Shown one piece after another: positions 41,771 through 58,110 of a stretch of 64,000 nucleotides of DNA (positions are counted from its first letter, which is position 1; each line of letters begins with the position of its first letter). The stretch covers positions 248,001 to 312,000 of the forward strand of contig JAUXZS010000056.1 in assembly GCA_030692515.1 (NCBI GenBank), given 5' to 3'. Made by a program: the position numbers and the translations under genes. The DNA comes from Bacteroidota bacterium. GTDB lineage: Bacteria; Bacteroidota; Bacteroidia; B-17B0; Aurantibacillaceae. The notes under the pieces were generated by a model. The model saw only the letters and a program-made list of their open reading frames with translations, was not told the origin of the DNA and did no database searches.

Positions 41771-41833
41771 GTTTTACTACTATAGTAGTATTAAATAAAC
41801 GTAAGATAAATACTAATTTTAAGTTTTAGAATT

Positions 41834-42466: not shown

Positions 42467-42598
42467 GAAAATCGGATAGAAGCATATTAACAGCTCCCTC
42501 AGCCAGTAAGCAGATTGGCAGACCCTAAATCAATTTAAGCAGATTAAAATTTGTGTATTAAGCATTGGTTGTTATATTTATCTTTCAAAAATATAACC

Positions 42599-44815
42599 AT
42601 GAATAAAAATTTATTTTTAGCTATTTCTTTTTTATTTCTTTTCAATGTAAACGCTCAAACCCCAACACCAAAAGATTGTTCTGTTGAGTTATGGGCAAAG
42701 GTTCAAGTTGCTCCTCCAACCATAACTCTTAATTGGGTTGGCAATGCGAATTCTACAAGTTATTCTGTAGATAGAAAACCAAAAAATAGTTCTACATGGA
42801 CAAGTTTAGCAACAAATATTCCAACAACACAAACGCAATATATTGACAACACAGTTTCTTTGGCTACTCATTACGAATATAGAGTAACAAGAGCAGCAAT
42901 AACTGGCACATTAAGCTATCCTGGTTATGGATATATCAACTCAGGAATTCAAGTGCCCGCTGTAGAAAGCAGAGGAAAATTAATTTTGTTGGTTGCAAAT
43001 ACTTTTAGCACAACATTAGCTCCAGAGTTAGACCGTTTAGTAGATGATTTAGAAGGAGATGGCTGGGTAGTATTAAAAAGTTACATAAGCACAACGTTAG
43101 CGGTTACATCCGTTAAAGCACAAATCCTAAGCACCTATAATTTAGACCCAATTAACACGAAAGCTTTATTTTTATTTGGACACATACCGGTTCCATATAG
43201 TGGAGATCTTGGTCCAGACGGACACGCAGATCATCAAGGCGCATGGCCTGCTGACGTTTATTATGGAGAATTGAATGGAACATGGACAGACGTTTCTGTT
43301 ACCTCAACAACGGTGTCGCCTGCTCGTACACAAAACATACCTAACGACGGTAAATTTGATCAGTGGCTAATTCCAACCGCGGTTGAGTTACAAGTTGGCC
43401 GTGTTGATTTATATGGCATGACCTCGTTTACTGCAACAGAAACACAACTATTAAAAAATTATTTAGATAAAGATCACGATTATCGTAAGAAAATTTTCTC
43501 TCCAGTAAAACGCGCAGTGATTGATGATAATTTTGGATATTTTTCTCCCGGAGAATCTTTTGCTTCTAGCGGGTTTAAAAACTTTGGCCCTTTAGTTACA
43601 CCATCCAACGTTGCAACAACTGATTATTTTACAACAATGACGGGTAACAGTTATCAATGGTCTTACGGTTGTGGTGGTGGAAGTTTTACTAGCGCAAGTG
43701 GAATAGGAACAACTGCCAATTTTGCTTCATCAAACTTAGAAGGCGTTTTTACAATGTTATTTGGAAGTTATTTTGGAGATTGGGACATTAACAATAATTT
43801 TTTACGCGCTCCATTATGTCAAGGTAAAACATTAACTAATGCTTGGGCAGGTCGTCCAAACTGGATGTTTCATCACATGGCAATGGGCGAAACAATTGGT
43901 TATAGCACACAGCTTACACAAAATAATACTACAACTTATTTTCCATCACCTTACCCAATAAATTATGGTTTATATAATGTGGTAACAATTGCATTAATGG
44001 GCGACCCTACATTACGTAACGATATTGTTGCTCCTGTTTCAAATGTTGTTGCCACTAAAGTTGGAAACAACTGTAATATTTCTTGGTCTGCCTCTACAGA
44101 AACAGCAATTGTAGGCTATAATATTTATATGAAAAATGCTACTAACACAAGCTATATAAAAATTAATCCTACACCAATTGCAGGAACAACTTATACTGAC
44201 AACTGTTTGATTTACCCGGGCATTTATAAATACATGGTAAGAACATTAAAATTAGAAACCACACCAAGCGGAACATATTATAATATGAGCGAGGGAATCG
44301 CCGATACAGCAAACAACACCAGTAATTTTACCATTGCAGCAGCGTTTACAAATACACTAACGGCAAACGTTGTTAACGTAACTAACACAACCACAAACGC
44401 TACAACTTATTCTTGGAACTTTGGAAATTCAGTTACTAGCACATTAACAAATCCAACTTCTGTTACTTATACATCTGCTGGACAATACACAATCACCTTA
44501 GTAGCTTCAAATGCTTGTAATAGCGCAACAACAACAAGTGTTGTAAATATAATTTTTGCAGGCTTAGAAAATAATAATTTAAATAATTCTGTTTTAGTTT
44601 GGCCAAACCCTTCTAGCGGAAAAATAATAATAGACAATAACACAAACGAATTGATGGATGTAAGTATTTATAGTTTAGAAGGAAGACGTGTTTATTATAA
44701 AAACAAAGTTGCGAAAGGCGAAGAACTAAACATTAATAAATTAGTTTCTGGTTTATATACCATTGAAATTAAAGTTGGCGATAAAACCACCAATACAAAA
44801 TTGGTGATAGAGTAG
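42599..44815 (+). CDS. T9SS-exported protein with gingipain-like (C25) fold, possibly non-catalytic, plus FN3 and PKD domains
   Basis: This 738-residue protein has a signal peptide (LFLAISFLFLFNVNAQ), an FN3-like domain (about 30-115) and a region of about 350 residues resembling peptidase C25. Supporting patterns are KLILLVANTF, ALFLFGHIPVPYS, VELQVGRVDL and the closing IALMGDPTLRND. The positions normally holding the catalytic His (GHG) and Cys read YGCGGGSF and MLFGSYFGDWD, so activity is doubtful. A second FN3, a PKD-like domain (YSWNFGNSVTSTLTNPTS) and a sorting tail (VLVWPNPSSGKIIIDN to TKLVIE) follow. The start is the ATG at 42599. Confidence 0.8.
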   Translation: MNKNLFLAISFLFLFNVNAQTPTPKDCSVELWAKVQVAPPTITLNWVGNANSTSYSVDRKPKNSSTWTSLATNIPTTQTQYIDNTVSLATHYEYRVTRAAITGTLSYPGYGYINSGIQVPAVESRGKLILLVANTFSTTLAPELDRLVDDLEGDGWVVLKSYISTTLAVTSVKAQILSTYNLDPINTKALFLFGHIPVPYSGDLGPDGHADHQGAWPADVYYGELNGTWTDVSVTSTTVSPARTQNIPNDGKFDQWLIPTAVELQVGRVDLYGMTSFTATETQLLKNYLDKDHDYRKKIFSPVKRAVIDDNFGYFSPGESFASSGFKNFGPLVTPSNVATTDYFTTMTGNSYQWSYGCGGGSFTSASGIGTTANFASSNLEGVFTMLFGSYFGDWDINNNFLRAPLCQGKTLTNAWAGRPNWMFHHMAMGETIGYSTQLTQNNTTTYFPSPYPINYGLYNVVTIALMGDPTLRNDIVAPVSNVVATKVGNNCNISWSASTETAIVGYNIYMKNATNTSYIKINPTPIAGTTYTDNCLIYPGIYKYMVRTLKLETTPSGTYYNMSEGIADTANNTSNFTIAAAFTNTLTANVVNVTNTTTNATTYSWNFGNSVTSTLTNPTSVTYTSAGQYTITLVASNACNSATTTSVVNIIFAGLENNNLNNSVLVWPNPSSGKIIIDNNTNELMDVSIYSLEGRRVYYKNKVAKGEELNINKLVSGLYTIEIKVGDKTTNTKLVIE

Positions 44816-44822
44816 CAATATT

Positions 44823-44903
44823 ATTGCGACCAAGGAAGCAATCTCATGCTTAGTTTTATTTTTTCTGTGTTTGAGATTACTTCGTCATTCTTCCTCGTAA
44901 TGA
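44823..44903. repeat. Dispersed palindromic repeat (imperfect long hairpin)
   Basis: The left arm attgcgaccaaggaagcaat and the right arm (ending cttcctcgtaatga) are imperfect inverted repeats, with gaagcaatctca mirrored by tgagattacttc. This matches the widespread intergenic attgcga...gaagcaatctc element of many bacterial genomes. It could form an RNA hairpin downstream of the T9SS gene. Confidence 0.6.
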
Positions 44904-44937
44904 TGGAGAGCGGAAAAGTCTAAGGTATAGATAGAAC

Positions 44938-44967
44938 GCTCTGTAGTCAATGGTTACAGAGCTTTTT
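44938..44967 (+). terminator. Rho-independent terminator after the T9SS gene
   Basis: An 8-bp stem (gctctgta and tacagagc) with a 9-base loop is followed by six T. It lies about 120 bases past the stop, beyond the palindromic repeat. Confidence 0.78.
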
Positions 44968-45072
44968 TATTTTGCAACTTCGAACAGAAAAAGCTACCCG
45001 AAGTGACATTCAGCTAGTAGTGAAAGAAATTCAGTTTTGTGAAATTAGTGTAATTCGTGGCTAGTCCCTGCC

Positions 45073-46563
45073 CTAAAGTTCTTTTCGCATTCTCCCAACA
45101 GGAATCTCTAACTGTTCGCGGTATTTAGCAACAGTTCTGCGGGCAATATTGTAGCCCTTTTCTTTTAGAATATTACAAAGCGCGTCATCCGTGTAAGGGT
45201 GTTGTTTATCTTCTGCTAAAATACAATCTTGTAGTATTTTTTTAATCTCTCTGCTACTAACTTCTTCACCGCTATCGGTGCTCATGCTTTCGCTAAAAAA
45301 TGTTTTTAATAAAAAGGTACCATAAGGAGTTTGCACATATTTACTGTTAGCAACGCGTGAAACTGTTGACAAATCAAGGTTTACGCGAGAAGCAATGTCT
45401 TTTAAAATCATCGGCTTTAATTTGCTTTCATCGCCGGTAACAAAATAATCGTGTTGGTAATCTAAAATACTATGCATGCAAAGCGCAAGTGTGGCGTGGC
45501 GTTGTTGTAGTGCTTCAATAAACCATTCTGCACTTTCAATTTTACTTTTAATAAAACCAGTTGCTTCTTTTGCAGATTTATCTTTATTTTTCGAATACTC
45601 TTTTAGCATTTCAAAATAATCTCTACTAATTTTAAGGTCAGGCAAATTTCTGCCGTTAATGCTTAATTCAGGAATACCATCATTCACCGTAATAATAAAA
45701 TCAGGAATAACAGCAGTAAAATTACTTTCTTTGCTTTCGCTATTACCAGGACGAGGATTTAAGTGAGTAATAACATCAACAATATCTTTTAGTTCATCAC
45801 TCTCAATATGAAATCGTTTTAGGATTTTATCATAATGTTTTTTTGAGAACTCCTCCATTTGATATTTAATAATGTCTTTTGCTAAAAGAACCTCTTTTGT
45901 TTTTTCAGCTTTTCTATCTAATTGAATCAGCAAACACTCTTGTAAATTTCTTGCGCCTACGCCAGCTGGGTCAAAACTTTGTATTAATAGTAATGCTTTT
46001 TCTAATTCAGGAATAGTTGTAGTAATATTATAATTAAAAGCTAAGTCATCAACAATTAATTCAAGCTCTCTTCTTAAATAACCATCTTCATCCAAACAAC
46101 CAATTAAATAAGCGCCAATGGTATATTCTGTTTCTGTAATGTCTTTTAATCCCAATTGTTGTTCTAATTGTTCTTGAAAGCCAATACCTTCAACAACCAC
46201 AAACTCCCTTGTTTCATCATCTGCTCCTTTGTTGGAGATTTCGTACTTATAAGAATCTAATTCTTCGGCATCCATATAATCTTCCATCACCACATCATTC
46301 TCAATAATTTTACTTTCGTCTTCCTTAGCTTCTCCTTGTTCATCAAACTCTACCTCTTCTGTTGTATCAACTTCTTCGTTACTGTATAATTCTTCTTCTG
46401 GAGAGTCGTTTAAATCTTCTTCTAATGCAGGATTAGCTTCAAGCTCTTCTTTAATTCTGTCTTCTAAGGCAAGGGTAGGCAACTGCAACAATTTCATTAA
46501 AAGAATTTGTTGCGGCAATAACTTTTGTGAAAGTTTAAGTTGTTGCGAATGTTTAAGTGCCAT
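45073..46563 (-). CDS. rpoN: RNA polymerase sigma-54 factor
   Basis: RpoN directs polymerase to -24/-12 promoters and needs an activator ATPase. The 496-residue protein has a Gln/Leu-rich region I (LKHSQQLKLSQKLLPQQILLMKLLQLP), an acidic region II (about 45-115), the core-binding domain, an HTH segment (LKDIASRVNLDLSTVSRVAN), and the RpoN box ARRTVAKYRE at 474-483. All are intact. The start is the ATG at 46561-46563, three bases after the tyrS stop, so it is cotranscribed with tyrS. No activator gene is in the window. Its candidate promoter sites are at 15521 and 20791. Confidence 0.96.
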   Translation of the reverse strand: MALKHSQQLKLSQKLLPQQILLMKLLQLPTLALEDRIKEELEANPALEEDLNDSPEEELYSNEEVDTTEEVEFDEQGEAKEDESKIIENDVVMEDYMDAEELDSYKYEISNKGADDETREFVVVEGIGFQEQLEQQLGLKDITETEYTIGAYLIGCLDEDGYLRRELELIVDDLAFNYNITTTIPELEKALLLIQSFDPAGVGARNLQECLLIQLDRKAEKTKEVLLAKDIIKYQMEEFSKKHYDKILKRFHIESDELKDIVDVITHLNPRPGNSESKESNFTAVIPDFIITVNDGIPELSINGRNLPDLKISRDYFEMLKEYSKNKDKSAKEATGFIKSKIESAEWFIEALQQRHATLALCMHSILDYQHDYFVTGDESKLKPMILKDIASRVNLDLSTVSRVANSKYVQTPYGTFLLKTFFSESMSTDSGEEVSSREIKKILQDCILAEDKQHPYTDDALCNILKEKGYNIARRTVAKYREQLEIPVGRMRKEL

Positions 46564-46566
46564 AAT

Positions 46567-47850
46567 TTAGTTTACCGTGCAGAGAAAATAATTTTTTTTA
46601 CCTTTTTGTATTAAAATATATTTGTTGTTTATTAAAAATGATGGGTTTAAAATTAGTTCGTGAGTTTCAACTTTTTCTTTATTAATACTTATTCCACCAC
46701 CTTGAATTAATTTTCTTGCTTCGCTTTTACTTGGGAGTACTTGTGTTTTTTCTGATAGAAATTCTAAAACATTTATCGAACTTTCAAGTTCACTTTTACT
46801 GATATTAAACTGAGGCACACCATCAAATACGTCTAAAAAAGTTGCTTCATCTAAAGCAGATAAATCTTTTAATTCGCCGTTAAATAAAACGGTGCTTGTT
46901 TCAATTGCGGCATTATAATCTGCTTCGCTGTGTACATGACAAGTTAACTCTTTAGCCAACGCCTTTTGTAACACACGTTTCCCCGGGTCTTTATCATGTT
47001 CTGAAATCAAATTTTCTACTTCTTCTTTTGGTAAAAATGTAAATACTTTAATAAAGTTTTTGGCATCAACATCAGAAGTGTTAATCCAAAATTGATAAAA
47101 TTTATAAGGAGAAGTTTTTGTTTTGTCTAGCCAAATGTTTCCGCCTTCCGTTTTTCCAAACTTTGTTCCATCTGCCTTTTTAATTAATTGTGTGGTTAAT
47201 CCAAAGGCTTCGCTACTTGCTTTTCTACGAATTAACTCTGTGCCACTGGTAATGTTTCCCCATTGGTCTGAACCACCCATTTGTAACTTACAGTTATTGT
47301 TTTTGTGTAAATAATAAAAGTCGTAAGCCTGTAATAACTGATAACTAAATTCTGTAAAGCTCATCCCGCTTTCCAACCTGTTTTTTACAGAGTCTTTGGC
47401 CATCATATAACTAACGGTTAAGTGTTTGCCAATGTCTCTAATAAAATTGATGAATGAATAATTTTTCATCCAATCGTAGTTATTTACGAGCTCAGCGTTG
47501 TTTTCACTTGAATCGAAGTCTAAAAATTTTTCTAGTTGTTTTTTTATTCCGGCAACATTTTTATTTAAATCCTCTTCATTCAATAAGTTTCTTTCGGCAG
47601 ATTTTCCGCTTGGGTCACCCACCATTCCCGTTGCGCCACCAATTAAAGCAATAGGTTTGTGTCCCGCTTTTTGAAAACGTATCAAGGTAAATATTTGTGT
47701 TAAGCTGCCTATGTGTAAAGAGTCTGCTGTTGGGTCGAAACCAATATATGCACTTACAGTTTCCTTATTAAGAAGTTCTTCTGTTCCCGGCATCATGTCT
47801 TGTAGTAGTCCGCGCCACCTAAGCTCATCTACAAAGTTTGTTGTTTTCAT
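46567..47850 (-). CDS. tyrS: Tyrosyl-tRNA synthetase
   Basis: This class I synthetase charges tRNA-Tyr. The protein (427 residues from the ATG at 47848-47850) has the HIGH-type motif in SLHIGSLTQ, the tyrosine-binding segment with [11 protein letters not shown] and GGSDQWGNI, the KMSKS-type loop KFGKT, and a C-terminal S4 RNA-binding domain ([15 protein letters not shown]). One codon upstream is a TTG that extends the frame but is less likely. rpoN follows after 3 bases, an arrangement that ties sigma-54 level to a housekeeping gene. Confidence 0.96.
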
Positions 47851-47937
47851 CAAAGTAAAAATACAAATATTATACCAAGGTTTCGTTGGCTTTATGTTAT
47901 GATATTTTATAAATTTATTTTTATATTAGAGCTAATT

Positions 47938-48240
47938 ATGTTCATATATAACGTTACAGTAAATCTTAATGATGAAATTCACGCCGAGTGGTTAAAGTGG
48001 ATGAAAGAAACCCATATACCCGATGTTATGAAGACAGGGTGTTTTATTGACAACCAAATGGTGAAGGTTTTGTATGTTGATGATGAAGGACACACATACT
48101 CCATTCAATACAAGTTTTTAGAAATGGTTGATATTGAAAAATATCAGAAAGAATTTTCTCAAAAATTGCAAGCTGAACATACAACAAAATTTAAAGATAA
48201 ATACACTGCTTTTAGAACTTTATTGCAGGTAATAGATTAA
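47938..48240 (+). CDS. DUF4286 family protein
   Basis: This 100-residue protein starts at the ATG at 47938 (MFIYNVTVNLNDEIHAEWLKWMKETHIPDVMKTG, split here by pattern only). It belongs to a small cytoplasmic family common in Bacteroidota with a ferredoxin-like, antibiotic-monooxygenase-like fold. The HIPDVM and YSIQYKF patterns support this. Function is unknown. The upstream 13-codon extension starts in the leader and is not needed. It is divergent from tyrS with an 87-base gap and ends before a strong terminator. Confidence 0.8.
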   Translation: MFIYNVTVNLNDEIHAEWLKWMKETHIPDVMKTGCFIDNQMVKVLYVDDEGHTYSIQYKFLEMVDIEKYQKEFSQKLQAEHTTKFKDKYTAFRTLLQVID

Positions 48241-48250
48241 TATAAAAACA

Positions 48251-48278
48251 AAAAAGTCGGTAACCAACCGACTTTTTT
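48251..48278 (+). terminator. Rho-independent terminator after the DUF4286 gene
   Basis: The stem aaaaagtcggt/accgacttttt with a 5-base loop gives T-runs on the plus strand and A-runs that would act on the minus strand as well. Confidence 0.88.
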
Positions 48279-48352
48279 GAACCAAAGTAACTAATTGTTT
48301 AACCCTTAATTATGACAACTTTGCTACTTATCTCTTAAACAAGAAAACAACA

Positions 48353-48790
48353 CTAATTAAGTTTAAACGGAGGTATTTTTCCTTCCGCCATCAATTGTAA
48401 GCTTTTCTTTTTGTGCGCTTCAAAATTACCAAACGCTAAAGCATCAAGCATTTCTCCACGACTCATATCAGGGTTGCCAAATTGTTTGCGAATTTCTTCA
48501 GAACAACGGTCAACGTATTTTTCAAATTTTATTGGAGCCCAAACGTACTCCTTTGTTAAAGCGTCTTTATTAAATTCAAACTCTTTAGGTAAACCACCTT
48601 CAATTTTGGATTTAATATCTAAGCCCTCGTAAGTTTTTGGTAGCTGACGATTATCAAACATAAACGGTTTGCTAATCATAATAACATGTTTTTTACGCTT
48701 TGGATCTATCATAGATAAACCCTCAATGCGCAAGCCTTTTTTCTTAAGGGTGCCGTACTTAGTTTCAAAGTGTTTTAGTATTTCGAACAT
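48353..48790 (-). CDS. Conserved-looking cytoplasmic protein, unknown
   Basis: The 145-residue product has no signal peptide or membrane helix. It is basic at the N-terminus (FETKYGTLKKKGLRIEG) and has a beta-rich middle (HVIMISKPFMFDNRQLPKTYEG). A helical C-terminal half follows (KFEKYVDRCSEEIRKQFG, then MSRGEMLDALAFGNFEAHKKK). I cannot assign a family. The compact, ordered composition and lack of low-complexity sequence suggest a real gene. It has its own transcript, converging on the DUF4286 gene. Confidence 0.7.
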   Translation of the reverse strand: MFEILKHFETKYGTLKKKGLRIEGLSMIDPKRKKHVIMISKPFMFDNRQLPKTYEGLDIKSKIEGGLPKEFEFNKDALTKEYVWAPIKFEKYVDRCSEEIRKQFGNPDMSRGEMLDALAFGNFEAHKKKSLQLMAEGKIPPFKLN

Positions 48791-49049
48791 GATTATTGTG
48801 TGTTGGACTACAAAGTTAACTATATAATTGTTAATAACTTTATTTATTAGACGAAAATATTTTGTTAAATCGCAATTGGTGTTAATATTTTGTGATTTTG
48901 GGGTTAATAAGCTGTTTATTCAATTTTAAGAATTACATAAACAACTGATTTATATGGTGTTAGGTGTTGGATAGAAATTAACAATAATTCGAGCTCGTTT
49001 TCAAGGAAAAAACTAAAAAATCGCTGAATTTTTTTTGAACTAAATTAAC

Positions 49050-50150
49050 CTAGTCTATTTTATATACTAAAACATTAAAAACGTATGGATTTATGCGTTT
49101 AATTTGTTCTGTTCTCTTTAAGGTTTTTAGAGTTTGTTTTTTTGGTAAATTAAGTAATTCGGCTTTCACGCTATCATTGGCTAACCCAGAAATTATTCCA
49201 AATATTTCATTTGATTTAATAGCAAATCCAGTAGCTTCAGCCCCAGTAATTTTTCCTCTAATTACACCAATTACATTTCCTTGATCGTTTAATAAAGGAC
49301 CACCGCTGTTTCCTGGATTAACAGGGATTGATATTTGATACATAGTTGTATCGTTCGAATAACCAGACAAAGAACTTAAAGAACCCTCGCCATAAACCAT
49401 ATCTTTTCTTGGATAACCTAAAGTATAAACTTTTTCACCAACATCAGTTGCCTTGTCGTTAAAAGAAAAAGGAACATCCCATGCCTTAGTTGCATTTGAA
49501 TTTACAATTTTTAAAATGGCAATATCTAACTTAGTATTAATAAAAACCACTTCAGTTAAAGTTCTTTCTAACGATTTGTTTTGTACAAAAACACTATCAG
49601 CTCCTTTTATCATGTGTGAACTAGTAATAATATAGCCTTTGTTGTTTAAGGCAAACGCACTACCTTCTAAATTTGCCGGCGCATAAACAGCTTTTTGATT
49701 TCCTTTAGTAATCCCTTCAACAATTGCAACACTCACCGCTTCGCTAGAGGCTTTTAAGTCGATCATTTCACGCATTAAATCAGTAATTTGATTGCTTTGT
49801 TGTTTTAATAAATAACCACCAGTACTTAATACGGCAACAGTGCTTAATACAGCAATAACTGCAACTGAAGCCGCATATGCAAAACCTTTTACATAACGCT
49901 TAGCAGTTGTTTCTTCTTTGATTGAAATAATTTTAGCGTCGTTACCAAAAGCTTGAGAATGAATTGCTTTTAATTTATTTTTAAAAGAGTTTCTTTTTTC
50001 ATTATCATTTAAAGCTTCAACAAGGGTTTTGTGTTGCTCAAAAGCTTTTGCGAAGTTAGCATCAGAACGTAATTGATTTTCGAAATCTATTACCTCGTTA
50101 ACGTTTAATTTTTTGTTTAAATAATTATCAAATAAATCTATCGGTCTCAT
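49050..50150 (-). CDS. Membrane protein joining an anti-sigma-like N-terminus to a periplasmic trypsin-like protease
   Basis: The 366-residue protein has three parts. The cytoplasmic segment (1-85) begins LFDNYLNKKLNVNEVIDFENQL, like the N-termini of Bacteroidota anti-sigma factors. One membrane helix follows (about 91-113). The periplasmic chymotrypsin-fold protease (about 135-340) has an intact triad: His179 in TSSHMI, Asp209 in KLDIAIL, and Ser282 in NPGNSGGPL. No PDZ domain is present. Its ATG overlaps the stop of the upstream ECF sigma gene by 4 bases. The likely model is that the N-terminus holds the sigma factor and the protease senses or executes signalling. Direct proof is lacking. 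Confidence 0.86.
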   Translation of the reverse strand: MRPIDLFDNYLNKKLNVNEVIDFENQLRSDANFAKAFEQHKTLVEALNDNEKRNSFKNKLKAIHSQAFGNDAKIISIKEETTAKRYVKGFAYAASVAVIAVLSTVAVLSTGGYLLKQQSNQITDLMREMIDLKASSEAVSVAIVEGITKGNQKAVYAPANLEGSAFALNNKGYIITSSHMIKGADSVFVQNKSLERTLTEVVFINTKLDIAILKIVNSNATKAWDVPFSFNDKATDVGEKVYTLGYPRKDMVYGEGSLSSLSGYSNDTTMYQISIPVNPGNSGGPLLNDQGNVIGVIRGKITGAEATGFAIKSNEIFGIISGLANDSVKAELLNLPKKQTLKTLKRTEQIKRINPYVFNVLVYKID

Positions 50151-50737
50151 TTTCTTTCTATTTGTTCAACGGGTAATATTTCAAAAAAATATTTCTTTAA
50201 TCTTTGTAAACATTTATATTTCTGGTTCTTTGCATTATCTGCATTTGTATAACCAAATTTTTCAGCAATTTCATCCATACTTAATTTTTGTACGTAAAAA
50301 TCTTTTATTAATGTGGCGCAAGGTTCGCCAAGCTCAATAAGACTTTTATTCATTTTTTCTAAATCGGCTTCTTTATCAATGTGCTCACTTATTTCACTGC
50401 CAACATCTACTAAATCGTTTTCTCCATCCTCTTTAAACAAAAAAGTTTTACTGTTCTTTTTCAATTGTTTTAGCCATAAACGCTTGGCAATTGAGTAAAT
50501 ATAAGTTTGCAATTGACAATTTAATTCAAAGTTTGGCTTTTGAACATTTTCATATAAAACAATTATTGTTTCTTGATAAATATCCTGAGCCGCCTCTTGA
50601 GTGCCGCTATTGTTTACAATAAATTTAAGAACGATGTTATAATACTTTTTATACAAAACACTTAATACCTCACTATTTCCGGTGCGCAAACCATCAATAA
50701 ATTGACTTTCGGTAAACTGCACTTTTGTTTTGGACAT
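50147..50737 (-). CDS. ECF-type RNA polymerase sigma factor
   Basis: This 196-residue protein has the two sigma-70 regions of ECF factors. Region 2 (about 20-85) reads LSVLYKKYYNIVLKFI, then AAQDIYQETIIVLYENV and YIYSIAKRLWLKQLKK. Region 4 (about 125-185) has FYVQKLSMDEIAEKFGYTNADNAKNQKYKCLQRLK. An acidic linker (LVDVGSEISEHIDKEAD) joins them. It is the first gene of a two-gene operon with the anti-sigma-like protease. The upstream region carries a palindrome and a direct repeat that could serve autoregulation. Confidence 0.92.
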   Translation of the reverse strand: MSKTKVQFTESQFIDGLRTGNSEVLSVLYKKYYNIVLKFIVNNSGTQEAAQDIYQETIIVLYENVQKPNFELNCQLQTYIYSIAKRLWLKQLKKNSKTFLFKEDGENDLVDVGSEISEHIDKEADLEKMNKSLIELGEPCATLIKDFYVQKLSMDEIAEKFGYTNADNAKNQKYKCLQRLKKYFFEILPVEQIERK

Positions 50738-50771
50738 AAACGCCTTGTTAAGATTAATACATTATTTTGTC

Positions 50772-50829
50772 AAAGGTAACCTTTACCGAAATAAGATTTA
50801 TGAAATAAGATTTAAAATTTGGGTAACCC
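50772..50829. promoter_or_regulatory. Patterned region: two GGTAACC palindromes flanking a 13-bp tandem repeat
   Basis: AAAGGTAACCTTT (50772-50784) and GGGTAACCC (50821-50829) are both palindromes around GGTAACC. Between them GAAATAAGATTTA occurs twice (50788-50800 and 50802-50814). The block lies in the divergent gap between the ECF sigma operon and the small lipoprotein gene, and could bind a regulator or hold ECF -35 elements. Confidence 0.45.
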
Positions 50830-50962
50830 ACTCAAATCTTAAATTTATTTAATTGATAATCAGCCGATTATAAATTATTTCTAAAATTTTCAATTTAATT
50901 GGGTTACTATTTTTAAAAAAGGGGATAAATAGGAAATTAACCAACAATAAAAAAAAACTAAA

Positions 50963-51184
50963 ATGAAAAAAGTATTTACAATTATCGCAGTAGCATTATT
51001 TGCTACAACTTTCGTAGCATGTGGACCTTCTGCTGAAGAAAAAGCTAAAATGGAAGAAAGAGCAAAACAAGTTGCTGATTCAATCGCAGCTGCTATTAGC
51101 GCTTCAATGAACGAAGTTACTACTGAAGAAGTTGCTCCAGTTGATTCAGTTGCTGCGGCACCTGCTGCTGAAGCACAACACTAA
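50963..51184 (+). CDS. Small lipoprotein, first of a related pair
   Basis: This 73-residue lipoprotein has a signal peptide with the lipobox FVACG, so Cys20 would carry the lipid. The mature part is a charged amphipathic helix (AEEKAKMEERAKQVADSIAAAIS) ending in an Ala/Glu/Pro tail. The pattern CGPxAExxxxMxxRAKxVxDSIA is shared with the gene at 51425. It is divergent from the ECF sigma operon. Function is unknown; a Braun-type spacer or a stress-regulated envelope protein are possibilities. A terminator follows. Confidence 0.78.
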   Translation: MKKVFTIIAVALFATTFVACGPSAEEKAKMEERAKQVADSIAAAISASMNEVTTEEVAPVDSVAAAPAAEAQH

Positions 51185-51211
51185 TATTTGTGTTTAGTTA
51201 GTTAGCTGATT

Positions 51212-51247
51212 GGCCTCAAAGCATTGCTTTGAGGCCTTTCTGTTTTT
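51212..51247 (+). terminator. Rho-independent terminator after the first small lipoprotein
   Basis: An 11-bp perfect stem (ggcctcaaagc and gctttgaggcc) with an ATT loop is followed by a T-rich tail. Confidence 0.92.
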
Positions 51248-51398
51248 GATAGTTGTTTAATATTAACAACAGGTCGCACAGATTTATTATTTTAAATAAA
51301 TTTTAAGGCCTTAAGGAATAACATTAAAAAAGAAAGAATCTGATTAGACTGCGAAATCCGCGGCTTTATTTTACAGTGCTTGCAGAGCTATTATTTCT

Positions 51399-51406
51399 TA
51401 TCTTTG
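51399..51406 (+). promoter_or_regulatory. Candidate Bacteroidota -7 box before the second small lipoprotein
   Basis: TATCTTTG, followed by GCC, matches TAnnTTTG and lies 18 bases before the ATG at 51425. A TTG in the -33 area (51380-51382) is at a slightly short distance. Confidence 0.45.
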
Positions 51407-51424
51407 CCAACAAATTATTTAGTT

Positions 51425-51634
51425 ATGAAAAAAATATTTTTATTTATTAGTTTGGTTTTTATTTTAGCGCAAACATCTTGTGGGCCAGCAGCTGAAAGTC
51501 GCGAATCTATGCATAAGCGGGCCAAAGAAGTTCAAGATTCAATTGCTAACTCAATAAAATCTGCAATAGCCGAAGTAGAAGGTATTACGGCCCCAGCACC
51601 TGTTGTTGATACAACACAAAAAGCACCTCAATAA
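51425..51634 (+). CDS. Small lipoprotein, second of a related pair
   Basis: The ATG at 51425 starts a 69-residue lipoprotein (MKKIFLFISLVFILAQTSCG, Cys19 in the lipobox). An upstream extension of 15 codons crosses the likely promoter and is rejected. The mature part, CGPAAESRESMHKRAKEVQDSIA, aligns with the first copy through the helix. The tail is a different Pro/Ala/Thr-rich stretch. The pair probably arose by duplication. It is followed by mrp after 36 bases and may share that transcript. Confidence 0.75.
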   Translation: MKKIFLFISLVFILAQTSCGPAAESRESMHKRAKEVQDSIANSIKSAIAEVEGITAPAPVVDTTQKAPQ

Positions 51635-51670
51635 ATTTATTATTGAATAAAGGTGTTTAAAAAATAAATT

Positions 51671-52756
51671 ATGGAAATTACAATTCAAAAAGTAATAGAT
51701 GCATTAAAATATGTTGATGACCCAGATCTTAAAAAAGATTTGGTAACCCTTAATATGATAAAAGATGTTGTGGTAGATGGAAAAAACATTGGTTTTACCG
51801 TTGTCCTTACAACTCCCGCTTGTCCAATGAAGGATATGATACATAACGCATGTATGAATGCTATTTTACATTATGTGGATAAAGAAGCAAAAGTAAAAAT
51901 AAACATGACCGCAACCGTTACTTCAAAAAAAGAAAAAGATGATACAACTTTGCGGGATGTAAAAAATATTATTGCAGTTGCCAGTGGAAAAGGAGGGGTT
52001 GGAAAAAGTACTGTTGCTGCTAATTTAGCGCTTGGTCTTGCTCGTCAAGGAGCAAAAGTAGGATTAGTTGACGCAGATATTTATGGTCCATCGCAACACA
52101 TCATGTTTGGCGTTGAACGCGATGCTCCTGGTCCGGGAGAGTTTAACGGACAAAAAAAAATGGCGCCAGTAGAAAGTTATGGTGTAAAAATAAATTCAGT
52201 TGGTTTTTTGGCGGGTCCAGGGCAAGTAGTTGCTTTGCGTGGACCAATGGCTAGCAAAGCGTTATCACAATTATTTTACGATACAGTTTGGGGAGAATTA
52301 GATTATTTAATTGTTGATTTACCTCCAGGTACTGGTGACATACAAATAAGTTTATGTAGCCAAGTTCCTTTAACAGGAGCAGTAATTGTTTGCACACCTC
52401 AATCGGTTGCAATTTCTGATGCGCGCAAAGGAATAGCTTTATTTCAATTGCCTGCCCTAAATGTGCCAATATTAGGTTTGGTAGAAAATATGGCTTGGTT
52501 TACACCAGAAGAATTACCAAATAATAAATATTATATTTTTGGAAAAGACGGCGTTAAAGATTTGGCCGAAGAATTACAAATGCCTTTATTAGCGCAATTA
52601 CCATTAATACAAAGTGTTCGCGAAGCCGCAGATGCCGGGCGCCCAGCGGTGATGCAAGAAAATACGCCACAAGCTTTAGCTTTTATAGAATTAGCACAAA
52701 ACGTTGCCCAACAAGTAGCGATTCTTAATGCTAATATTGTAACAGAAAAAGTTTAA
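51671..52756 (+). CDS. Mrp/ApbC family Fe-S cluster carrier ATPase
   Basis: The 361-residue protein has an N-terminal MIP18-type domain (about 1-90, with TTPACPMKDM) and a P-loop ATPase domain with the deviant Walker A GKGGVGKSTVAANLA. It also has DADIYGPSQH and DYLIVDLPPGTGD. Family members hold and transfer iron-sulfur clusters in the cytoplasm. The C-terminal CxxC seen in many Mrp proteins after VENM is absent; here the sequence is VENMAWFTPEELP. Clusters might instead be bound at the MIP18 cysteine. The stop overlaps the convergent neighbour by 4 bases. Confidence 0.93.
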   Translation: MEITIQKVIDALKYVDDPDLKKDLVTLNMIKDVVVDGKNIGFTVVLTTPACPMKDMIHNACMNAILHYVDKEAKVKINMTATVTSKKEKDDTTLRDVKNIIAVASGKGGVGKSTVAANLALGLARQGAKVGLVDADIYGPSQHIMFGVERDAPGPGEFNGQKKMAPVESYGVKINSVGFLAGPGQVVALRGPMASKALSQLFYDTVWGELDYLIVDLPPGTGDIQISLCSQVPLTGAVIVCTPQSVAISDARKGIALFQLPALNVPILGLVENMAWFTPEELPNNKYYIFGKDGVKDLAEELQMPLLAQLPLIQSVREAADAGRPAVMQENTPQALAFIELAQNVAQQVAILNANIVTEKV

Positions 52757-53481
52757 TTTTTATTTTCCTTTTCGCGATTAGCTTTTTTTGTATTGAATTT
52801 TACAACCAAGCCTGCTTGAACGATAGCTCCTTTTTCGTAACCAAGCTCAAAATTTAATCCAAAGTAAGGATTGAAATAGCGCCTATAACCAATACTCGGT
52901 GCAAAATAAAAACCTCCTGGTAGGGAAAGATCATATTCTAGGTCCCTCTTAAATTGTTTTGCAAATCTACCAGCATCTGTGCTGCTAAAAGCTATGTTTA
53001 ATTTGTTTTTTGTTAAACCAAGTCCTAATCCAAGATAAAAATCATTTTTTGCATTCTCAAGCGGAAAATGAAATACCGGACGGATTCCAAAAGATTTACT
53101 TGTTATTTTTATTTTGTAAATATCTACGCTATCCCTTACTATTACAGATTGGTTTTGAAGATTATAATAATCTTTTACATCAAATTTTATAGACCAAAAC
53201 GAATAATTAATGCCCAATCCAAAAACCTCGTTAATCCCATATTCAGTTTTTACAGAGGTAGGATTAAACCCTCTAATAGAAGATATTTCAAGCACATCGC
53301 CAAAGTTTTCCTTAAAAGCATTACTGTTTGCAGCTATTTTTACAATTCCTCTAAACAAATGGGGAGTCCCAATGTTACCGTTTACTATTATATCACCCTG
53401 ATTAAAGGATTGCGCCTCGTTTTTTAAGGCGCAACCAAATATAAAACCAATTAAAAAAAGTTTTTTTATAGTCATTTTCAT
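52753..53481 (-). CDS. Outer-membrane beta-barrel-like protein, unknown
   Basis: This 242-residue protein has a signal peptide (KKLFLIGFIFGCALKNEAQ). Alternating hydrophobic strands typical of small outer-membrane barrels follow, with aromatic strand ends such as LGINYSFWSIKFDV, LGLGLGLTKNKLNIAF, YFAPSIGYRRYFNPYFGLNFELGYEKG and a final AGLVVKFNTKK. The C-terminus ends in a short charged tail rather than a terminal Phe. No family is named. It is transcribed after a lipoprotein gene (13-base gap) and converges on mrp. Confidence 0.75.
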   Translation of the reverse strand: MKMTIKKLFLIGFIFGCALKNEAQSFNQGDIIVNGNIGTPHLFRGIVKIAANSNAFKENFGDVLEISSIRGFNPTSVKTEYGINEVFGLGINYSFWSIKFDVKDYYNLQNQSVIVRDSVDIYKIKITSKSFGIRPVFHFPLENAKNDFYLGLGLGLTKNKLNIAFSSTDAGRFAKQFKRDLEYDLSLPGGFYFAPSIGYRRYFNPYFGLNFELGYEKGAIVQAGLVVKFNTKKANREKENKN

Positions 53482-53494
53482 GGGTTAAAAAGTA

Positions 53495-54091
53495 TTATTG
53501 TTCTAAGGTGTATTCTTCTTTAGTGGTATTAGTTGTTCCTGAACCAACAGATGTGTCTTCACTATAGATGACCATTTTTTTATTTCTTAATTCACGAACA
53601 TTAAAAGTCATAAAAATTTTATTTCCAGTATACGATGTTTTGAAGATTGAGCTATTAACCACAGTTGAAAAATTCAAAATTAGTTGTTCTTTATTTTTTA
53701 ATTTACCAATACCAGAGGTAAAATTCCACTGGCCAGTTGTTGTAGATAAATCTCCATCAATTGATTGAGTTAGCTTAAAACTTCCATCCTTATCAAACTT
53801 AAATTTATATGAAAAGGAACCTGAAAAGGAATTAATATTTGAAGTGTTGTTATAAGTAGATGTACCGACATAAGAATAAGAGTTACCGGTAATTGTAACA
53901 TTCTCTATGTCTGAAGAATTTCCAGATATATTACTGAAAACCAGCAGGCCACTTTTTACTGCCCAATCGCCAACTACCCTCGCTTTTCTTGTTCTAAAGG
54001 ATATTAAGGGGTCATCCTCTCCTTTTTTTAGGCAACTACTAAAATTAGTAAGAATTGCAACTAACAAAATTAATTTTACGATGAGGTTCAT
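53495..54091 (-). CDS. Lipoprotein of unknown function
   Basis: This 198-residue product has a signal with the lipobox FSSCL, so Cys20 is the likely lipid anchor. The mature domain contains a conserved-looking VVGDWAVKSG near the start. Many beta strands follow (NSYSYVGTSTYN, FSYKFKFDKDGSFKL, TGQWNFTSGIG), a composition seen in lipocalin-like Bacteroidota lipoproteins, though I cannot confirm that. It is followed by the barrel-like gene on the same strand, so the two may make one envelope unit. Confidence 0.74.
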   Translation of the reverse strand: MNLIVKLILLVAILTNFSSCLKKGEDDPLISFRTRKARVVGDWAVKSGLLVFSNISGNSSDIENVTITGNSYSYVGTSTYNNTSNINSFSGSFSYKFKFDKDGSFKLTQSIDGDLSTTTGQWNFTSGIGKLKNKEQLILNFSTVVNSSIFKTSYTGNKIFMTFNVRELRNKKMVIYSEDTSVGSGTTNTTKEEYTLEQ

Positions 54092-54120
54092 AGATGGTTT
54101 TTTATTTAAAAAGTATGCGT

Positions 54121-55065
54121 TTATTTTTTTAAATTCACCAACATATTTTCTACAAGCTTTGGTAAATCATAATGTATGTTCCAGCCCCAGTCTTTTTTGG
54201 CCTCAGCATCGTTAATGCTTTTTGGCCAACTATCGGCAATGGCTTGTCTAAAATCAGGTTTATAGGTAATTGTAAAATCAGGAATGTGTTTTTTTATTTC
54301 TTCTGCAATTTGTTTCGGACTAAAACTAATGCCCGCTAAATTATAAGCGCCACGAATTTTTATCTTTTCGGCAGGCGCATGCATAATTTCTAAAGTAGCA
54401 CGTATAGCGTCTTCCATGTGCATCATTGGTAAGGCAGTATTTTCACTTAAAAAACTTTCATATGTGCCAGTTTTTAAAGCTTCATGAAAAATATGTACAG
54501 CGTAATCTGTAGTTCCACCGCCCGGCGCGCTTTTCCAACCAATTAAACCTGGGTAACGAATACTTCTTGTATCAACCCCATGCTTTTTAAAGTACCATTC
54601 GCACCAACGCTCTCCGGCTTGTTTACTAATGCCGTAAATTGTTGAAGGCTCCATAACCGTGTACTGTGGCGTGTTTTCTTGTGGTGTAGTTGGTCCAAAT
54701 ACGGCGATAGAACTTGGCCAGTAAATTTGTTTAATGTGTTTTTCTTTTCCTAAATCTAAAACATGAAATAAACTTTCCATGTTTAATTTCCACGCAAACA
54801 TCGGATGTTGTTCGCCTGTTGCAGAAAGCATTGCCGCTAAATGATAAACGTGTGTAATGCCATGTTTTTTTACAATTTCAAAAAGCGCTTTACCATCTAA
54901 GGCATCTAATTTTTCGAAAGTATTTTCTGTTGTAACTGCTGGTTCTTTTAAATCAGAAGGAATAACATTTTTATGTCCGTAAATTTTAGATAATTCGGCT
55001 GTTAATTCAAGCCCAATTTGCCCGCCGGCACCAATGATTAATACTTTTTCGTTCTTAGTTGACAT
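54121..55065 (-). CDS. SDR-type L-threonine 3-dehydrogenase
   Basis: The 314-residue protein is an extended short-chain dehydrogenase that resembles the epimerase-like threonine dehydrogenases described in Bacteroidota such as Flavobacterium. These oxidise L-threonine to 2-amino-3-ketobutyrate with NAD. Visible motifs are the Rossmann GAGGQIG, the YxxxK catalytic pair in YGISKQAGE, WPSSIAVFG, and the RYPGLIGW segment. A nucleotide-sugar epimerase is the main alternative, but the conserved substrate-region sequence TTDYAVHIF fits the threonine enzyme. The next enzyme, Kbl, is not in this window. Confidence 0.88.
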   Translation of the reverse strand: MSTKNEKVLIIGAGGQIGLELTAELSKIYGHKNVIPSDLKEPAVTTENTFEKLDALDGKALFEIVKKHGITHVYHLAAMLSATGEQHPMFAWKLNMESLFHVLDLGKEKHIKQIYWPSSIAVFGPTTPQENTPQYTVMEPSTIYGISKQAGERWCEWYFKKHGVDTRSIRYPGLIGWKSAPGGGTTDYAVHIFHEALKTGTYESFLSENTALPMMHMEDAIRATLEIMHAPAEKIKIRGAYNLAGISFSPKQIAEEIKKHIPDFTITYKPDFRQAIADSWPKSINDAEAKKDWGWNIHYDLPKLVENMLVNLKK

Positions 55066-55217
55066 GATTAGAATCAGTTATTTGTTAGCAAACAATTTTG
55101 TACCTTTACAAACGTAATTATAATTTTTGAAATTCGACACAATGTACGCTGTACAAAGTGTAAACACAAAATTTATACTACAAAATGATAATATAAACTG
55201 CAATTATTTTTATCGTT

Positions 55218-56282
55218 ATGGCAATATTAGCGAATCGTGAAAACAAAGACGTTTTAAAACAGCGTTTAAAAGAAGAAAACATCGAGCGAAAAACAATATC
55301 GTTTTACCGATATGTTAATATTTCTAATCCACAAGAATTAAGAGACCAACTTTTTAAAACCTGGAGCGAATGGGGCTGCTTTGGCAGAATCTATATTGCT
55401 AAGGAAGGGATTAACGCGCAAATGAGTGTACCCGAGAAAAACTGGGATAGCTTCGTGGAAAATCTAAACAGCATAATTTATTTTAAAGAGGTGCCTATTA
55501 AACACGCTGTGGATGGTAACGGAAAATCTTTTTACAAATTAGTAATTAAAGTAAAAGAAAAGGTTGTTGCAGATGGCATAGAAGACCCTGACTTTGACCC
55601 TTCAAAAACTGGAAAATATTTAGACGCGATTGAATTTAATAAGGCCTTAGAAGATCCCAACACCATTGTAATTGATATGCGCAATCATTATGAAAGCGAA
55701 GTGGGAAGATTTGAAGGCGCTTTTTGTCCGGATGCTGATACGTTTAGAGAGGAATTACCATTAGTGATTGAGCATTTACATGGACAAGAAGATAAAAAAG
55801 TGCTAATGTATTGTACAGGCGGCATTCGCTGCGAAAAAGCCAGCGCCTATTTTAAACATAAAGGATTTAAAGATGTAAATCATTTACATGGCGGTATTAT
55901 AAAATATGCCGAAGAGATAAAAGAAAAGGGTTTAGAAAGCAAATTTAAAGGAATAAATTTTGTTTTTGACGAGCGAATTGGAGAACGCATAACCACGGAT
56001 GTTTTAAGCACTTGTCATCAGTGTGATGAGCCTTGTGACACTCACGTTAATTGTAAAAATGACGACTGTCATTTATTATTTATTCAATGCAAAAGTTGTG
56101 CTGAAAAAATGAGTGGTTGTTGTACGCCCGAGTGTATTACTATTGCCGCTTTACCAATTGAAGAACAAAGGGCACTGAGAAAAGGCAGAATTAAAAACGG
56201 GCCCGAATGCTTGGCTGTTTATAAGAGTAGACTAAGACCAAACCTTAAGGAAATTCTAAAAAATAATTTATCTTTAGAATAA
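55218..56282 (+). CDS. trhO: tRNA uridine(34) hydroxylase TrhO (rhodanese family)
   Basis: TrhO hydroxylates U34 of certain tRNAs. The 354-residue protein has an N-terminal TrhO-type domain (FYRYVNISNPQELRDQL, KEGINAQMS). A rhodanese domain follows with the catalytic cysteine in MYCTGGIRCEKA and the GGIIKYAEE segment. The C-terminal extension is rich in CxxC-type cysteines (STCHQCDEPCDTHVNC, CKSCAEKMSGCC), which probably bind zinc. The start is the ATG at 55218. A lipoprotein gene begins 9 bases downstream and may be cotranscribed. Confidence 0.92.
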   Translation: MAILANRENKDVLKQRLKEENIERKTISFYRYVNISNPQELRDQLFKTWSEWGCFGRIYIAKEGINAQMSVPEKNWDSFVENLNSIIYFKEVPIKHAVDGNGKSFYKLVIKVKEKVVADGIEDPDFDPSKTGKYLDAIEFNKALEDPNTIVIDMRNHYESEVGRFEGAFCPDADTFREELPLVIEHLHGQEDKKVLMYCTGGIRCEKASAYFKHKGFKDVNHLHGGIIKYAEEIKEKGLESKFKGINFVFDERIGERITTDVLSTCHQCDEPCDTHVNCKNDDCHLLFIQCKSCAEKMSGCCTPECITIAALPIEEQRALRKGRIKNGPECLAVYKSRLRPNLKEILKNNLSLE

Positions 56283-56290
56283 ATATTGAT

Positions 56291-56845
56291 ATGAAAAGAT
56301 TAGTTGGAATAGGCGTTTTTATTTTGCTGTTAAGCATTATAGGTTCATGCAAAAAAATCAGAAAACTAAAAGAGTTTGATTTGATGTATACTGAAGACAT
56401 TATAATTCCGGCCAATAATACTGTGTTAACGGTTCCTTTTGACATTTTTACTCCAGAACAAACAACAAATACTGAGGCAGAATATGATAACCAAGGCACC
56501 AGTTCTAAGTTGGTTGAAGAGGTAAAACTTACTAAATTATTGTTTTCAATAAAATCTCCTACATCTAGTAATTTTGATTTTTTAAACTCTGTAGAAATCT
56601 TTTTATCAAGCCCAAATAACACTGAAATACTTGTTGCTTCAAAATATAATATCCCAGAAACAGGATTAAAGCAGCTTGAAATGGAAGTGTCTTCGGAGAA
56701 TCTTAAAAACATTTTACAAGACGAATCTTATAATTTAAGAGTAAAAGCAGTAACCGATAAAACTATTTTTTCTGATATTACGGTTACAACAAACGCAACC
56801 TTTCATGTAAAAGCTAGGGTTAAAAATGTATTTAAAAGAAAATAA
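56291..56845 (+). CDS. Lipoprotein of unknown function
   Basis: This 184-residue protein has a signal peptide ending in the lipobox IIGSCKK, so Cys20 is the likely lipid anchor. The mature part is mainly beta sequence (TVPFDIFTPEQ, LFSIKSPTSSNFDFLNSVEIFLS, FHVKARVKNVFKRK) with no clear motif. It could be an adhesin-like or structural lipoprotein. It follows trhO closely and precedes hmgA by 35 bases on the same strand. Neither neighbour gives a functional clue. Confidence 0.72.
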   Translation: MKRLVGIGVFILLLSIIGSCKKIRKLKEFDLMYTEDIIIPANNTVLTVPFDIFTPEQTTNTEAEYDNQGTSSKLVEEVKLTKLLFSIKSPTSSNFDFLNSVEIFLSSPNNTEILVASKYNIPETGLKQLEMEVSSENLKNILQDESYNLRVKAVTDKTIFSDITVTTNATFHVKARVKNVFKRK

Positions 56846-56880
56846 TCGCATTAAGCAACAGGATATTAAATTAAATAAAA

Positions 56881-58038
56881 ATGCCTATCTATCATAAACT
56901 TGGAAAAATTCCAGCAAAAAGACATACCGTTTTTAAAAGCGAAAAAGGAAATTATTATTACGAACAACTTTTTGGAACAGAAGGTTTTTCAGGCATGGAC
57001 TCCTTGCTATACCATACGCACAGACCAACTCAAGTAAAAGAAATTTTACGAAGTTATTCCGTTGCCCCAAAAATTGCTATCCAAAAAAACATTAAATCAC
57101 TTTTATTAAAAGGTTTTGAAATAAAACCAACGCCAGATTTTTTAGAAAGCAGAAAAACATTATTAATTAATGGTGATTGCGCAATTGGTTTAGCGGCCCC
57201 AACAAAAAGTCAAACAGATTATTTTTATAAAAATGCAGATGCCGATGAATTGCTTTTTATTCATAAAGGAAAAGGAACGTTAAAAACCTTTATGGGTAAC
57301 ATTCAATTTGAATATGGCGATTATTTAATTATTCCACGTGGAATGATTTACCAAATGCATTTTGATACAACTGATAATAGAATTTTATATTGCGAAAGTT
57401 TTGCGCCCTATTACACACCAAAGCGTTATAAAAACTCTCAAGGACAACTATTAGAGCACTCACCGTTTTGTGAGCGCGATTATAAATTACCAACCGATTT
57501 AGAAACGCATGATGAAAAAGGTGATTTTATTGTGAAGATAAAAAAAGAAGGTATGATGCACGAGTTTGTTTATGCAACACATCCTTTTGATGTTGTGGGT
57601 TGGGATGGCTATAATTTTCCTTGGGGATTTTCTATTCATAATTTTGAACCAATTACAGGGCGCTTGCACCAACCACCACCGGTTCACCAAACTTTTGAAA
57701 CTTCTACATTTGTAGTGTGTAGTTTTGTTCCGCGTTTATATGATTATCATCCGCTTTCTATTCCCGCACCATACAACCATAGTAACATTGATAGTGATGA
57801 GGTATTGTATTATGTAGATGGTGATTTTATGAGTCGGAACAATATTGAACAAGGACACATTACTCTACACCCAAAAGGCATTCCTCACGGGCCGGCGCCA
57901 GGAGCCATGGAGCGCAGTATTGGTCATAAAGAAACTCAAGAGTTAGCGGTAATGATAGATACATTTAGACCCTTAATGGTTACCGAAGAAGCAATGGGAA
58001 TTGATGACGGGAAGTATTATAAAAGTTGGGTGGAGTAG
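56881..58038 (+). CDS. hmgA: Homogentisate 1,2-dioxygenase
   Basis: HmgA opens the ring of homogentisate to maleylacetoacetate in tyrosine and phenylalanine breakdown. At 385 residues it is of normal length for the bacterial enzyme. The cupin core (about 115-180: ELLFIHKGKGTLKTF, GDYLIIPRG) and the active-site region match the family. In that region PWGFSIHNFEP, ITGRLHQPPPVHQTF and PHGPAPGAMERSIG carry candidate iron-binding His and Glu residues. The other pathway genes (hpd, fah) are not in this window. It ends in a strong terminator shared with the convergent gene. Confidence 0.92.
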   Translation: MPIYHKLGKIPAKRHTVFKSEKGNYYYEQLFGTEGFSGMDSLLYHTHRPTQVKEILRSYSVAPKIAIQKNIKSLLLKGFEIKPTPDFLESRKTLLINGDCAIGLAAPTKSQTDYFYKNADADELLFIHKGKGTLKTFMGNIQFEYGDYLIIPRGMIYQMHFDTTDNRILYCESFAPYYTPKRYKNSQGQLLEHSPFCERDYKLPTDLETHDEKGDFIVKIKKEGMMHEFVYATHPFDVVGWDGYNFPWGFSIHNFEPITGRLHQPPPVHQTFETSTFVVCSFVPRLYDYHPLSIPAPYNHSNIDSDEVLYYVDGDFMSRNNIEQGHITLHPKGIPHGPAPGAMERSIGHKETQELAVMIDTFRPLMVTEEAMGIDDGKYYKSWVE

Positions 58039-58051
58039 TAATACCCATAAT

Positions 58052-58096
58052 AAAAAATCCGAAAATTGATTGTTTATATCAATTTTCGGATTTTTT
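58052..58096. terminator. Long bidirectional terminator after hmgA
   Basis: A 19-bp perfect stem (58052-58070 and 58078-58096, containing aatccgaaaattgat) encloses a 7-base loop, with T-runs on both strands. It separates hmgA from the convergent secreted gene. Confidence 0.92.
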
Positions 58097-58110
58097 GTAA
58101 AAGAAGTTTT

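Follow-up and report, generated by a model that had tools for sequence, protein, structure and literature searches.

An operon of two genes, in which an ECF sigma factor is followed by a membrane protein that very probably joins an anti-sigma domain to a periplasmic serine protease, was recognized in the window, meaning here the whole 64,000-nucleotide stretch of Bacteroidota DNA that was analyzed (Table 1). The second protein runs from N-terminal helices through one transmembrane (TM) helix and a linker to an HtrA/DegS-like trypsin domain without PDZ. The best single mechanism for this pair is a dedicated envelope-stress switch with built-in site-1 proteolysis, to which we assign a probability of about 0.5; release of the sigma factor by occupancy of the protease is its main rival. 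Slightly more tentatively, we propose a one-chain switch of at least 10 Bacteroidia families that would unite anti-sigma factor, site-1 protease and stress sensor, have a C-terminal tail in place of the PDZ gate and its own promoter code and lipoprotein regulon, and have arisen as a functional RpoE counterpart through the swapping of domains on a shared anti-sigma module. At the level of sequence comparison, the pairing, the modular tail domain, the conserved catalysis, the conserved promoter and the recurrent candidate targets are established. The whole is a variant of the sigma/anti-sigma systems of regulated proteolysis. To our knowledge, envelope-stress sigma pathways of Bacteroidota are poorly mapped, and this one is a widely conserved, testable circuit whose components, promoter and candidate targets can be named. 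It may also represent a minimal natural design, where one protein senses, cuts itself and releases the sigma factor.

Table 1. Positions of the operon, its protein regions and its predicted targets in the window
Feature	Position	Strand	Basis
ECF sigma factor (sigma2 + sigma4), 196 aa	50147..50737	-	Pfam, NCBIfam matches
Probable anti-sigma/trypsin fusion, 366 aa, ATGA overlap with sigma gene	49050..50150	-	ORF, domain matches
Cytoplasmic anti-sigma-type domain, residues 1-70	49941..50150	-	AlphaFold2 model, profile tests, neighbors of related sigma factors
TM helix, residues 88-110, Ala93-Ala94 invariant	49821..49889	-	Hydrophobicity, alignment
Periplasmic linker, residues 111-155, heptad-like hydrophobics, predicted self-cleavage zone	49686..49820	-	Alignment, model
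HtrA/DegS-like serine protease domain, residues 156-325, triad H179-D209-S282	49176..49685	-	Pfam, structure, alignment
Conserved C-terminal tail, residues 344-366	49053..49121	-	AlphaFold2 model, conservation
Predicted sigma-operon promoter, autoregulatory, GGTTACCTTT-N11-GTATTAA	50754..50781	-	Motif conservation, shuffles
Predicted divergent promoter, GGTTACTATT-N11-GGATAAA, 4 mismatches to consensus	50902..50929	+	Sequence; equivalent sites in relatives
73-aa lipoprotein (lipobox by eye), predicted regulon member	50963..51184	+	Sites of relatives; no Pfam match
69-aa lipoprotein, like the 73-aa one by eye; regulon membership uncertain	51425..51634	+	Pfam lipid-attachment E 0.037, weak

In the proposed mechanism, the N-terminal helices of the membrane protein would hold the co-expressed sigma factor at the inner membrane, and the HtrA/DegS-type protease, located in the periplasm as part of this chain, would be both the stress sensor and a built-in site-1 protease. 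A misfolding or envelope signal would cause the protease to cut the linker between the TM helix and the protease domain, either in its own chain or in a neighbor within a coiled-coil oligomer (in cis or in a partner subunit). With the bulky periplasmic domain removed, the M50 site-2 protease of the genome would cut the TM helix, and cytoplasmic proteases would then free the sigma factor. At GGTTACCTTT-N11-GTATTAA promoters, the freed sigma factor would start transcription of the operon that encodes it and of a few genes for envelope lipoproteins, and the additional protease/anti-sigma protein made from the operon would reset the switch. Sigma binding, self-cleavage, the site-2 step, reading of the motif by this sigma factor and the nature of the signal are the parts that we infer.

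The overlap of four bases (ATGA) between the sigma and protease frames agrees with the original prediction. The sigma protein matched Sigma70_r2 (E 1.2e-9) and, in NCBIfam, TIGR02937 (67.5 bits against a cut-off of 42.9), and it has sigma2 and sigma4 only, as is characteristic of ECF factors. In a read-through fold of sigma plus tail modeled for locus L068, sigma2 resembled 4lup_C (Z 8.7, rmsd 2.9 over 91) and sigma4 resembled 3hug_K (Z 6.9, rmsd 2.3 over 68), both Z values being modest for helical folds. Rfam at the gathering threshold gave no RNA elements near the locus in positions 40000-60000 of the window.

A search for more such pairs, which had been recommended together with the original prediction, revealed the fusion in 59 of 395 genomes of the class, belonging to 10 families (profile search, own count, taking matches down to E 6.2e-58 with at most five candidates scored per genome). 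The sigma gene lies directly upstream of the fusion in 58 of the 59, the exception (L183) being situated at the edge of a contig of 3.4 kb. A scan of 77 loci, which represent 55 distinct proteins with many contigs counted twice, found a sigma frame in every one, and on one contig (L023/L053) this frame is broken and shortened to 103 aa. Of the 47 named loci from L036 to L082, all but L049 (at +97) and the broken L053 have the protease start at -23 to +36 bp from the sigma stop (45 loci); the -4 overlap is exact in 11 of the 47, and L075 has a further upstream ATG. For comparison, 16 trypsin relatives without the fusion were taken, namely 12 of the 81 weaker rows of the class search and four further places, with flanks of up to ~3 kb that are shorter at contig ends (0.3 kb upstream in L170). 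Such a sigma factor or N-terminal domain was present in none of the 16 fetched flanks, where the sigma profile found no frame better than E 0.017; the same profile finds 15 of the 18 other sigma loci of the genome under study. Chance neighborhood of sigma factor and protease is rejected by the 77 sigma frames, the class pairing and these 16 controls. Among 22 matches at E<=1e-45 in 296 genomes of the phylum, 21 fell in this class, and the one outside it (G559) matches in the protease part only.

Conservation was evaluated in a set of 107 sequences composed of 55 distinct close homologues and 52 class loci in which the sigma factor had already been found; 102 of the 107 are distinct in their last 200 residues. 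Three of the 59 fusions, all from family f68 (L139, L140, L143), have the tail cut to about its last helix and retain sigma factor, TM helix and protease. In L143 the match begins at profile position 43. The reduced tail of this family is perhaps a natural minimal anti-sigma.

The protease domain matched Trypsin_2 with E 1.4e-21 over residues 163-296, and its closest solved relatives by sequence were MucD, DegP and other HtrA proteases including DegS. Its fold is that of DegS 3lgv_I (Z 19.0, rmsd 2.2 over 162 residues) and of HtrA1 8se7_F (Z ~19, rmsd 3.0 over 165), thus an HtrA trypsin fold with His-Asp-Ser. The catalytic triad, whose positions had been predicted exactly, is kept in all 55 distinct close homologues and in 107/107 class-wide, as is G280 of the GNSGG motif (107/107). 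A dead protease that serves only as a binding domain is unlikely in view of this invariant triad. The absence of PDZ was also foreseen correctly: neither Pfam nor NCBIfam gave a PDZ match, and only ~41 residues follow the protease domain. The fusion is therefore not a strict member of the HtrA family, which has PDZ at its C-terminal end, and it has the same chemistry. Both the protease and the C-terminal tail were modeled confidently by AlphaFold2, the tail as a helix (346-356) and a strand (357-363) with pLDDT ~80-92. Class-wide, residues 344-364 are the best conserved of seven regions (mean 0.69 versus 0.63 for the protease). Situated where HtrA proteases have their PDZ, this tail is a candidate gate.

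The single membrane helix of the original prediction corresponds to a hydrophobic stretch of TM strength in 105 of the 107 sequences, with A93 and A94 present in all. The distance from position 94 to position 163 is 52-73 residues in all 107. The linker shows heptad-like hydrophobic positions (I122, L125, V129 in most relatives, L132), L125 being kept in 100/107, and may form a coiled coil in which cleavage would take place. TM helix and linker were of low confidence in the AlphaFold2 model, where the linker helix 119-138 had pLDDT <50.

No conserved cleavage site or motif was seen in the linker in the class alignment, and this is one of the points in favor of the main rival. According to this rival there is no self-cleavage: substrate occupancy or a change of oligomer shape of a quality-control protease would make the tail let go of the sigma factor, so that more protease and lipoproteins are produced. 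The protease does sit in an operon whose promoter the sigma factor probably reads, conserved catalysis would be expected of a working enzyme, and the conserved tail at the C-terminus is a possible sensor. On the other hand, release of RpoE needs proteolysis of its anti-sigma factor, as a section of PMC8103513 describes, and a Trypsin_2 protein of HtrA size (488 aa) is already encoded elsewhere in the genome. We regard such feedback by sequestration as rather unlikely. Built-in proteolysis has points against it as well: the cut-down tail of f68, the lack of a match to the DUF4349 target in the genome under study, the weak divergent promoter with its 4 mismatches, the same missing motif in the linker, and the possibility that the protease acts on other proteins. 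According to part of PMC8144685, substrates with a large periplasmic domain are kept out of RseP-type proteases until they have been cut at site 1. A folded periplasmic domain of this size would be expected to keep a site-2 protease of RseP type from acting, and an M50 protein is present in the genome; self-removal of the domain would thus be the favored model. This M50 protein (PF02163, E 7.4e-51) belongs to a family also found in 14/14 control genomes and so is non-specific. The original prediction supposed that two proteins suffice for sensing, proteolysis and sigma control; this part gained no support, as the site-2 protease is probably still needed, while the anti-sigma reading of the tail gained good support by comparison.

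This comparison starts from related sigma factors. A search of 295 class genomes with the sigma profile gave 61 at E<=1e-40, 42 of which are fusion genomes, and the other 19 loci were fetched. In 15 of these 19, the gene next to the sigma factor has the N-terminal domain of the fusion and no match to the protease profile; the four remaining loci are L363, L367, L369 and L373, the last of which ends ~290 bp after the sigma gene. The 15 next genes start at -4 to +30 bp, and their first ~75 residues match with E 8e-16 to 7e-9 (a small set). A TM helix is clear in 14 of the 15 and weak in L368. Thus, these non-fused proteins from other Bacteroidia families have the same N-terminal domain, TM position and gene order as the fusion but differ in their periplasmic parts, which lack trypsin and, in the ten proteins scanned, contain no known domain of Pfam or NCBIfam. 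A reciprocal profile built from the 15 non-fused proteins only recovered 103 of the 107 fusions at E<=1e-3; it recovered 0/107 reversed sequences and, among 92 frames of the window, only the fusion protein at the same threshold. Since the same N-terminal domain stands behind related sigma factors without trypsin, we take the N-terminus as most likely an anti-sigma domain of modular nature, with the protease as a swapped-in periplasmic half. Judging from these sequences, evolution seems to have joined several different periplasmic parts to a common anti-sigma module, the protease among them.

The same observation gives some ground to a second alternative, in which the protease domain is cut off by a separate site-1 protease or itself processes a diffusible signal, being attached to the anti-sigma protein for localization only. 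Fused and non-fused proteins have a common tail with different periplasmic parts, and therefore the non-fused ones, if proteolytically released, use another site-1 protease. Against this stand the triad and G280, invariant across 10 families, and the nearly constant company of fusion and sigma factor; we consider this alternative improbable.

In the preferred reading, with the site-1 protease built in, the tail would bind the partner sigma factor. AlphaFold2 (44 rows) placed three helices in the tail (3-11, 17-29, 31-68), with pLDDT 84-90 over residues 1-50 and 66-75 over 51-70. As outlined in part of PMC7406223, the class I anti-sigma domain (ASDI) is a three-helix bundle with a fourth helix that binds sigma2. 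Adjacency to an ECF sigma gene, which is expected of ASDI, is present for 58/59 fusions and for 15/19 non-fused loci. Of 21 tails, 10 gave weak matches to the NCBIfam antisigma model (best 7.8e-4), and no other model matched as many; PRK13920 anti-sigmaE and an unrelated NCBIfam model matched four tails each, and zf-HC2 three. Weak anti-sigma matches were present in four of the ten non-fused proteins scanned. The tail of the window itself had no NCBIfam match at E<=1 and no anti-sigma match above the Pfam cut-off, and its sequence gave no meaningful match to solved structures and none to a solved anti-sigma chain. The read-through fold of L068 had pTM 0.72 with tail helices at pLDDT 86-89 over residues 201-260. 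No solved sigma chain agrees well with its placement of sigma2 and sigma4 (best two-domain alignments to sigma/anti-sigma entries: rmsd 8.6 over 136 for 6dxo; 12 to 14 for RpoE, AlgU and SigK, at worst 14.2 over 147 residues), and for this reason the fold is counted as weak support. Taken jointly, these results strongly support both the pairing and an anti-sigma nature of the tail. That the tail is not anti-sigma, and the two genes are merely co-transcribed while it does something else, for example anchoring, is most improbable: the missing Pfam and PDB anti-sigma matches favor this, and the NCBIfam matches, the 15 non-fused neighbors, the reciprocal profile and the co-occurrence across 10 families oppose it.

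Two proteins with a similar tail deserve mention. At L380:864-2969(-), a 702-aa protein with the same tail type lies behind a related sigma factor; neither Pfam nor NCBIfam matches it at E<=0.01. In the genome under study (L099, C66:104779), the gene after another ECF sigma factor encodes a protein of 418 aa; the start of this protein is similar to the same tail (E 5.5e-8) and, by eye, contains two such tail modules.

Among known systems, RpoE-RseA-DegS-RseP of E. coli (and likewise AlgU-MucA-AlgW) has in common with this one an ECF sigma factor, a single-TM anti-sigma factor, a periplasmic protease of HtrA type and an M50 protease. Here, in contrast, anti-sigma and protease form one polypeptide, and a conserved C-terminal tail of ~20 residues is found instead of PDZ. 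The promoter motif and the targets also differ from those of the E. coli RpoE system. Proteases of the MarP (Rv3671c) type are membrane-anchored and HtrA-like, are not known to have PDZ, and have several TM helices against one in the fusion. In NCBIfam, MarP gave the best E-value for the fusion with 87.5 bits, yet this is far below the NF033740 cut-off of 250 bits, and the fusion differs from MarP by its N-terminal sigma-linked domain. In anti-sigma factors of RsgI/FecR type, as portrayed in portions of PMC12203970 and PMC8144685, the protein's own periplasmic part aids cleavage and RseP follows, as proposed here; this likeness is functional and drawn from those descriptions, not from sequence. 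FecR and FoxR cleave themselves by peptide-bond rearrangement and not by an attached serine protease, according to the relevant portion of PMC8144685. Neither PMC7406223 (ASDI) nor PMC8103513 (RseA-DegS-RseP) mentions trypsin. No such sigma-paired anti-sigma/protease fusion was found in the literature at the level of titles and the openings of abstracts, and the 2021 ECF re-classification may already list the group.

The putative promoter of the operon, GGTTACCTTT-N11-GTATTAA, was found upstream of the sigma gene and in 0 of 100 shuffled windows. The surroundings of the motif diverge within the genus, but of 52 distinct sites 41 are identical to it and 50 differ at no more than one position. 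A matrix trained on the genus was applied to 43 loci of other families: 42 scored higher than each of the 20 shuffles made from them, and 41 exceeded the 99th percentile of the pooled shuffles, with L154 and L160 as the exceptions. The pattern search of 40 genus genomes yielded 38 matches in 32 genomes and none for the reversed control. With up to 2 mismatches there were 156 sites in the 40 genomes versus 112 for the reversed pattern (summed by hand), and 2 versus 7 in the genome under study. A single site with 2 mismatches therefore means little, and recurrent sites and those upstream of orthologues were used. The relaxed pattern found the sigma promoter and one other site (C19:198037) in this genome, against 1 for the control. 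The motif is probably read by the partner sigma factor, other ECF factors of these genomes being candidate readers as well. It is unlike the CGT box that is assigned to ECF factors in a flavobacterium promoter map, to go by part of PMC9723704. A second GGTTACC lies ~45 bases upstream of the sigma promoter (window 50822-50828, minus strand) with no clear -10 box; it is also present, by eye, in the near relatives L009-L012 and L014, and a lone GGTTACC is expected by chance ~4 times per window.

Promoter sites recur upstream of three genes. One codes for the divergent lipoprotein of ~75 aa, another for a DUF4349 protein whose start is lipobox-like, and the third for a coiled-coil lipoprotein; lipoboxes of candidate targets were judged by eye. 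For DUF4349 orthologues identified by protein search, 15 of 19 loci pass the 99th percentile of shuffles (8.8) and 14 pass the highest shuffle (14.0); the 19 were taken from 27 loci, the eight left out being C-terminal pieces, broken or weak. The misses are L278, with a 2-mismatch site 20 bases before the match, L286, L287 and the weak homologue L289. In L286 and L287 (G033:C89, G008:C101), the DUF4349 gene lies directly downstream of the protease gene, which is an independent link from the candidate regulon to the operon. A protein search of the genome under study gave no match to the DUF4349 target. Of the 30 best loci for the coiled-coil lipoprotein, 22 score above the 99th percentile (7.0), among them this genome with its site at C58:193542, and 21 score above the highest shuffle (10.0). 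The search seeds L271 and L298 were picked by motif and are yet counted in the 15/19 and 22/30. The divergent lipoprotein has a homologue in 29 of 46 named loci, with an automatic promoter call in 19 of the 46, and the named loci without it look related to each other. Most candidate targets look like envelope lipoproteins, and this composition of the putative regulon points to an envelope-stress response. The literature search found nothing joining DUF4349 and a sigma factor. In one genome, a promoter site with 2 mismatches lies 15 bases ahead of the start of a DUF2459 protein (L244:500-1180(+), E 4.4e-57).
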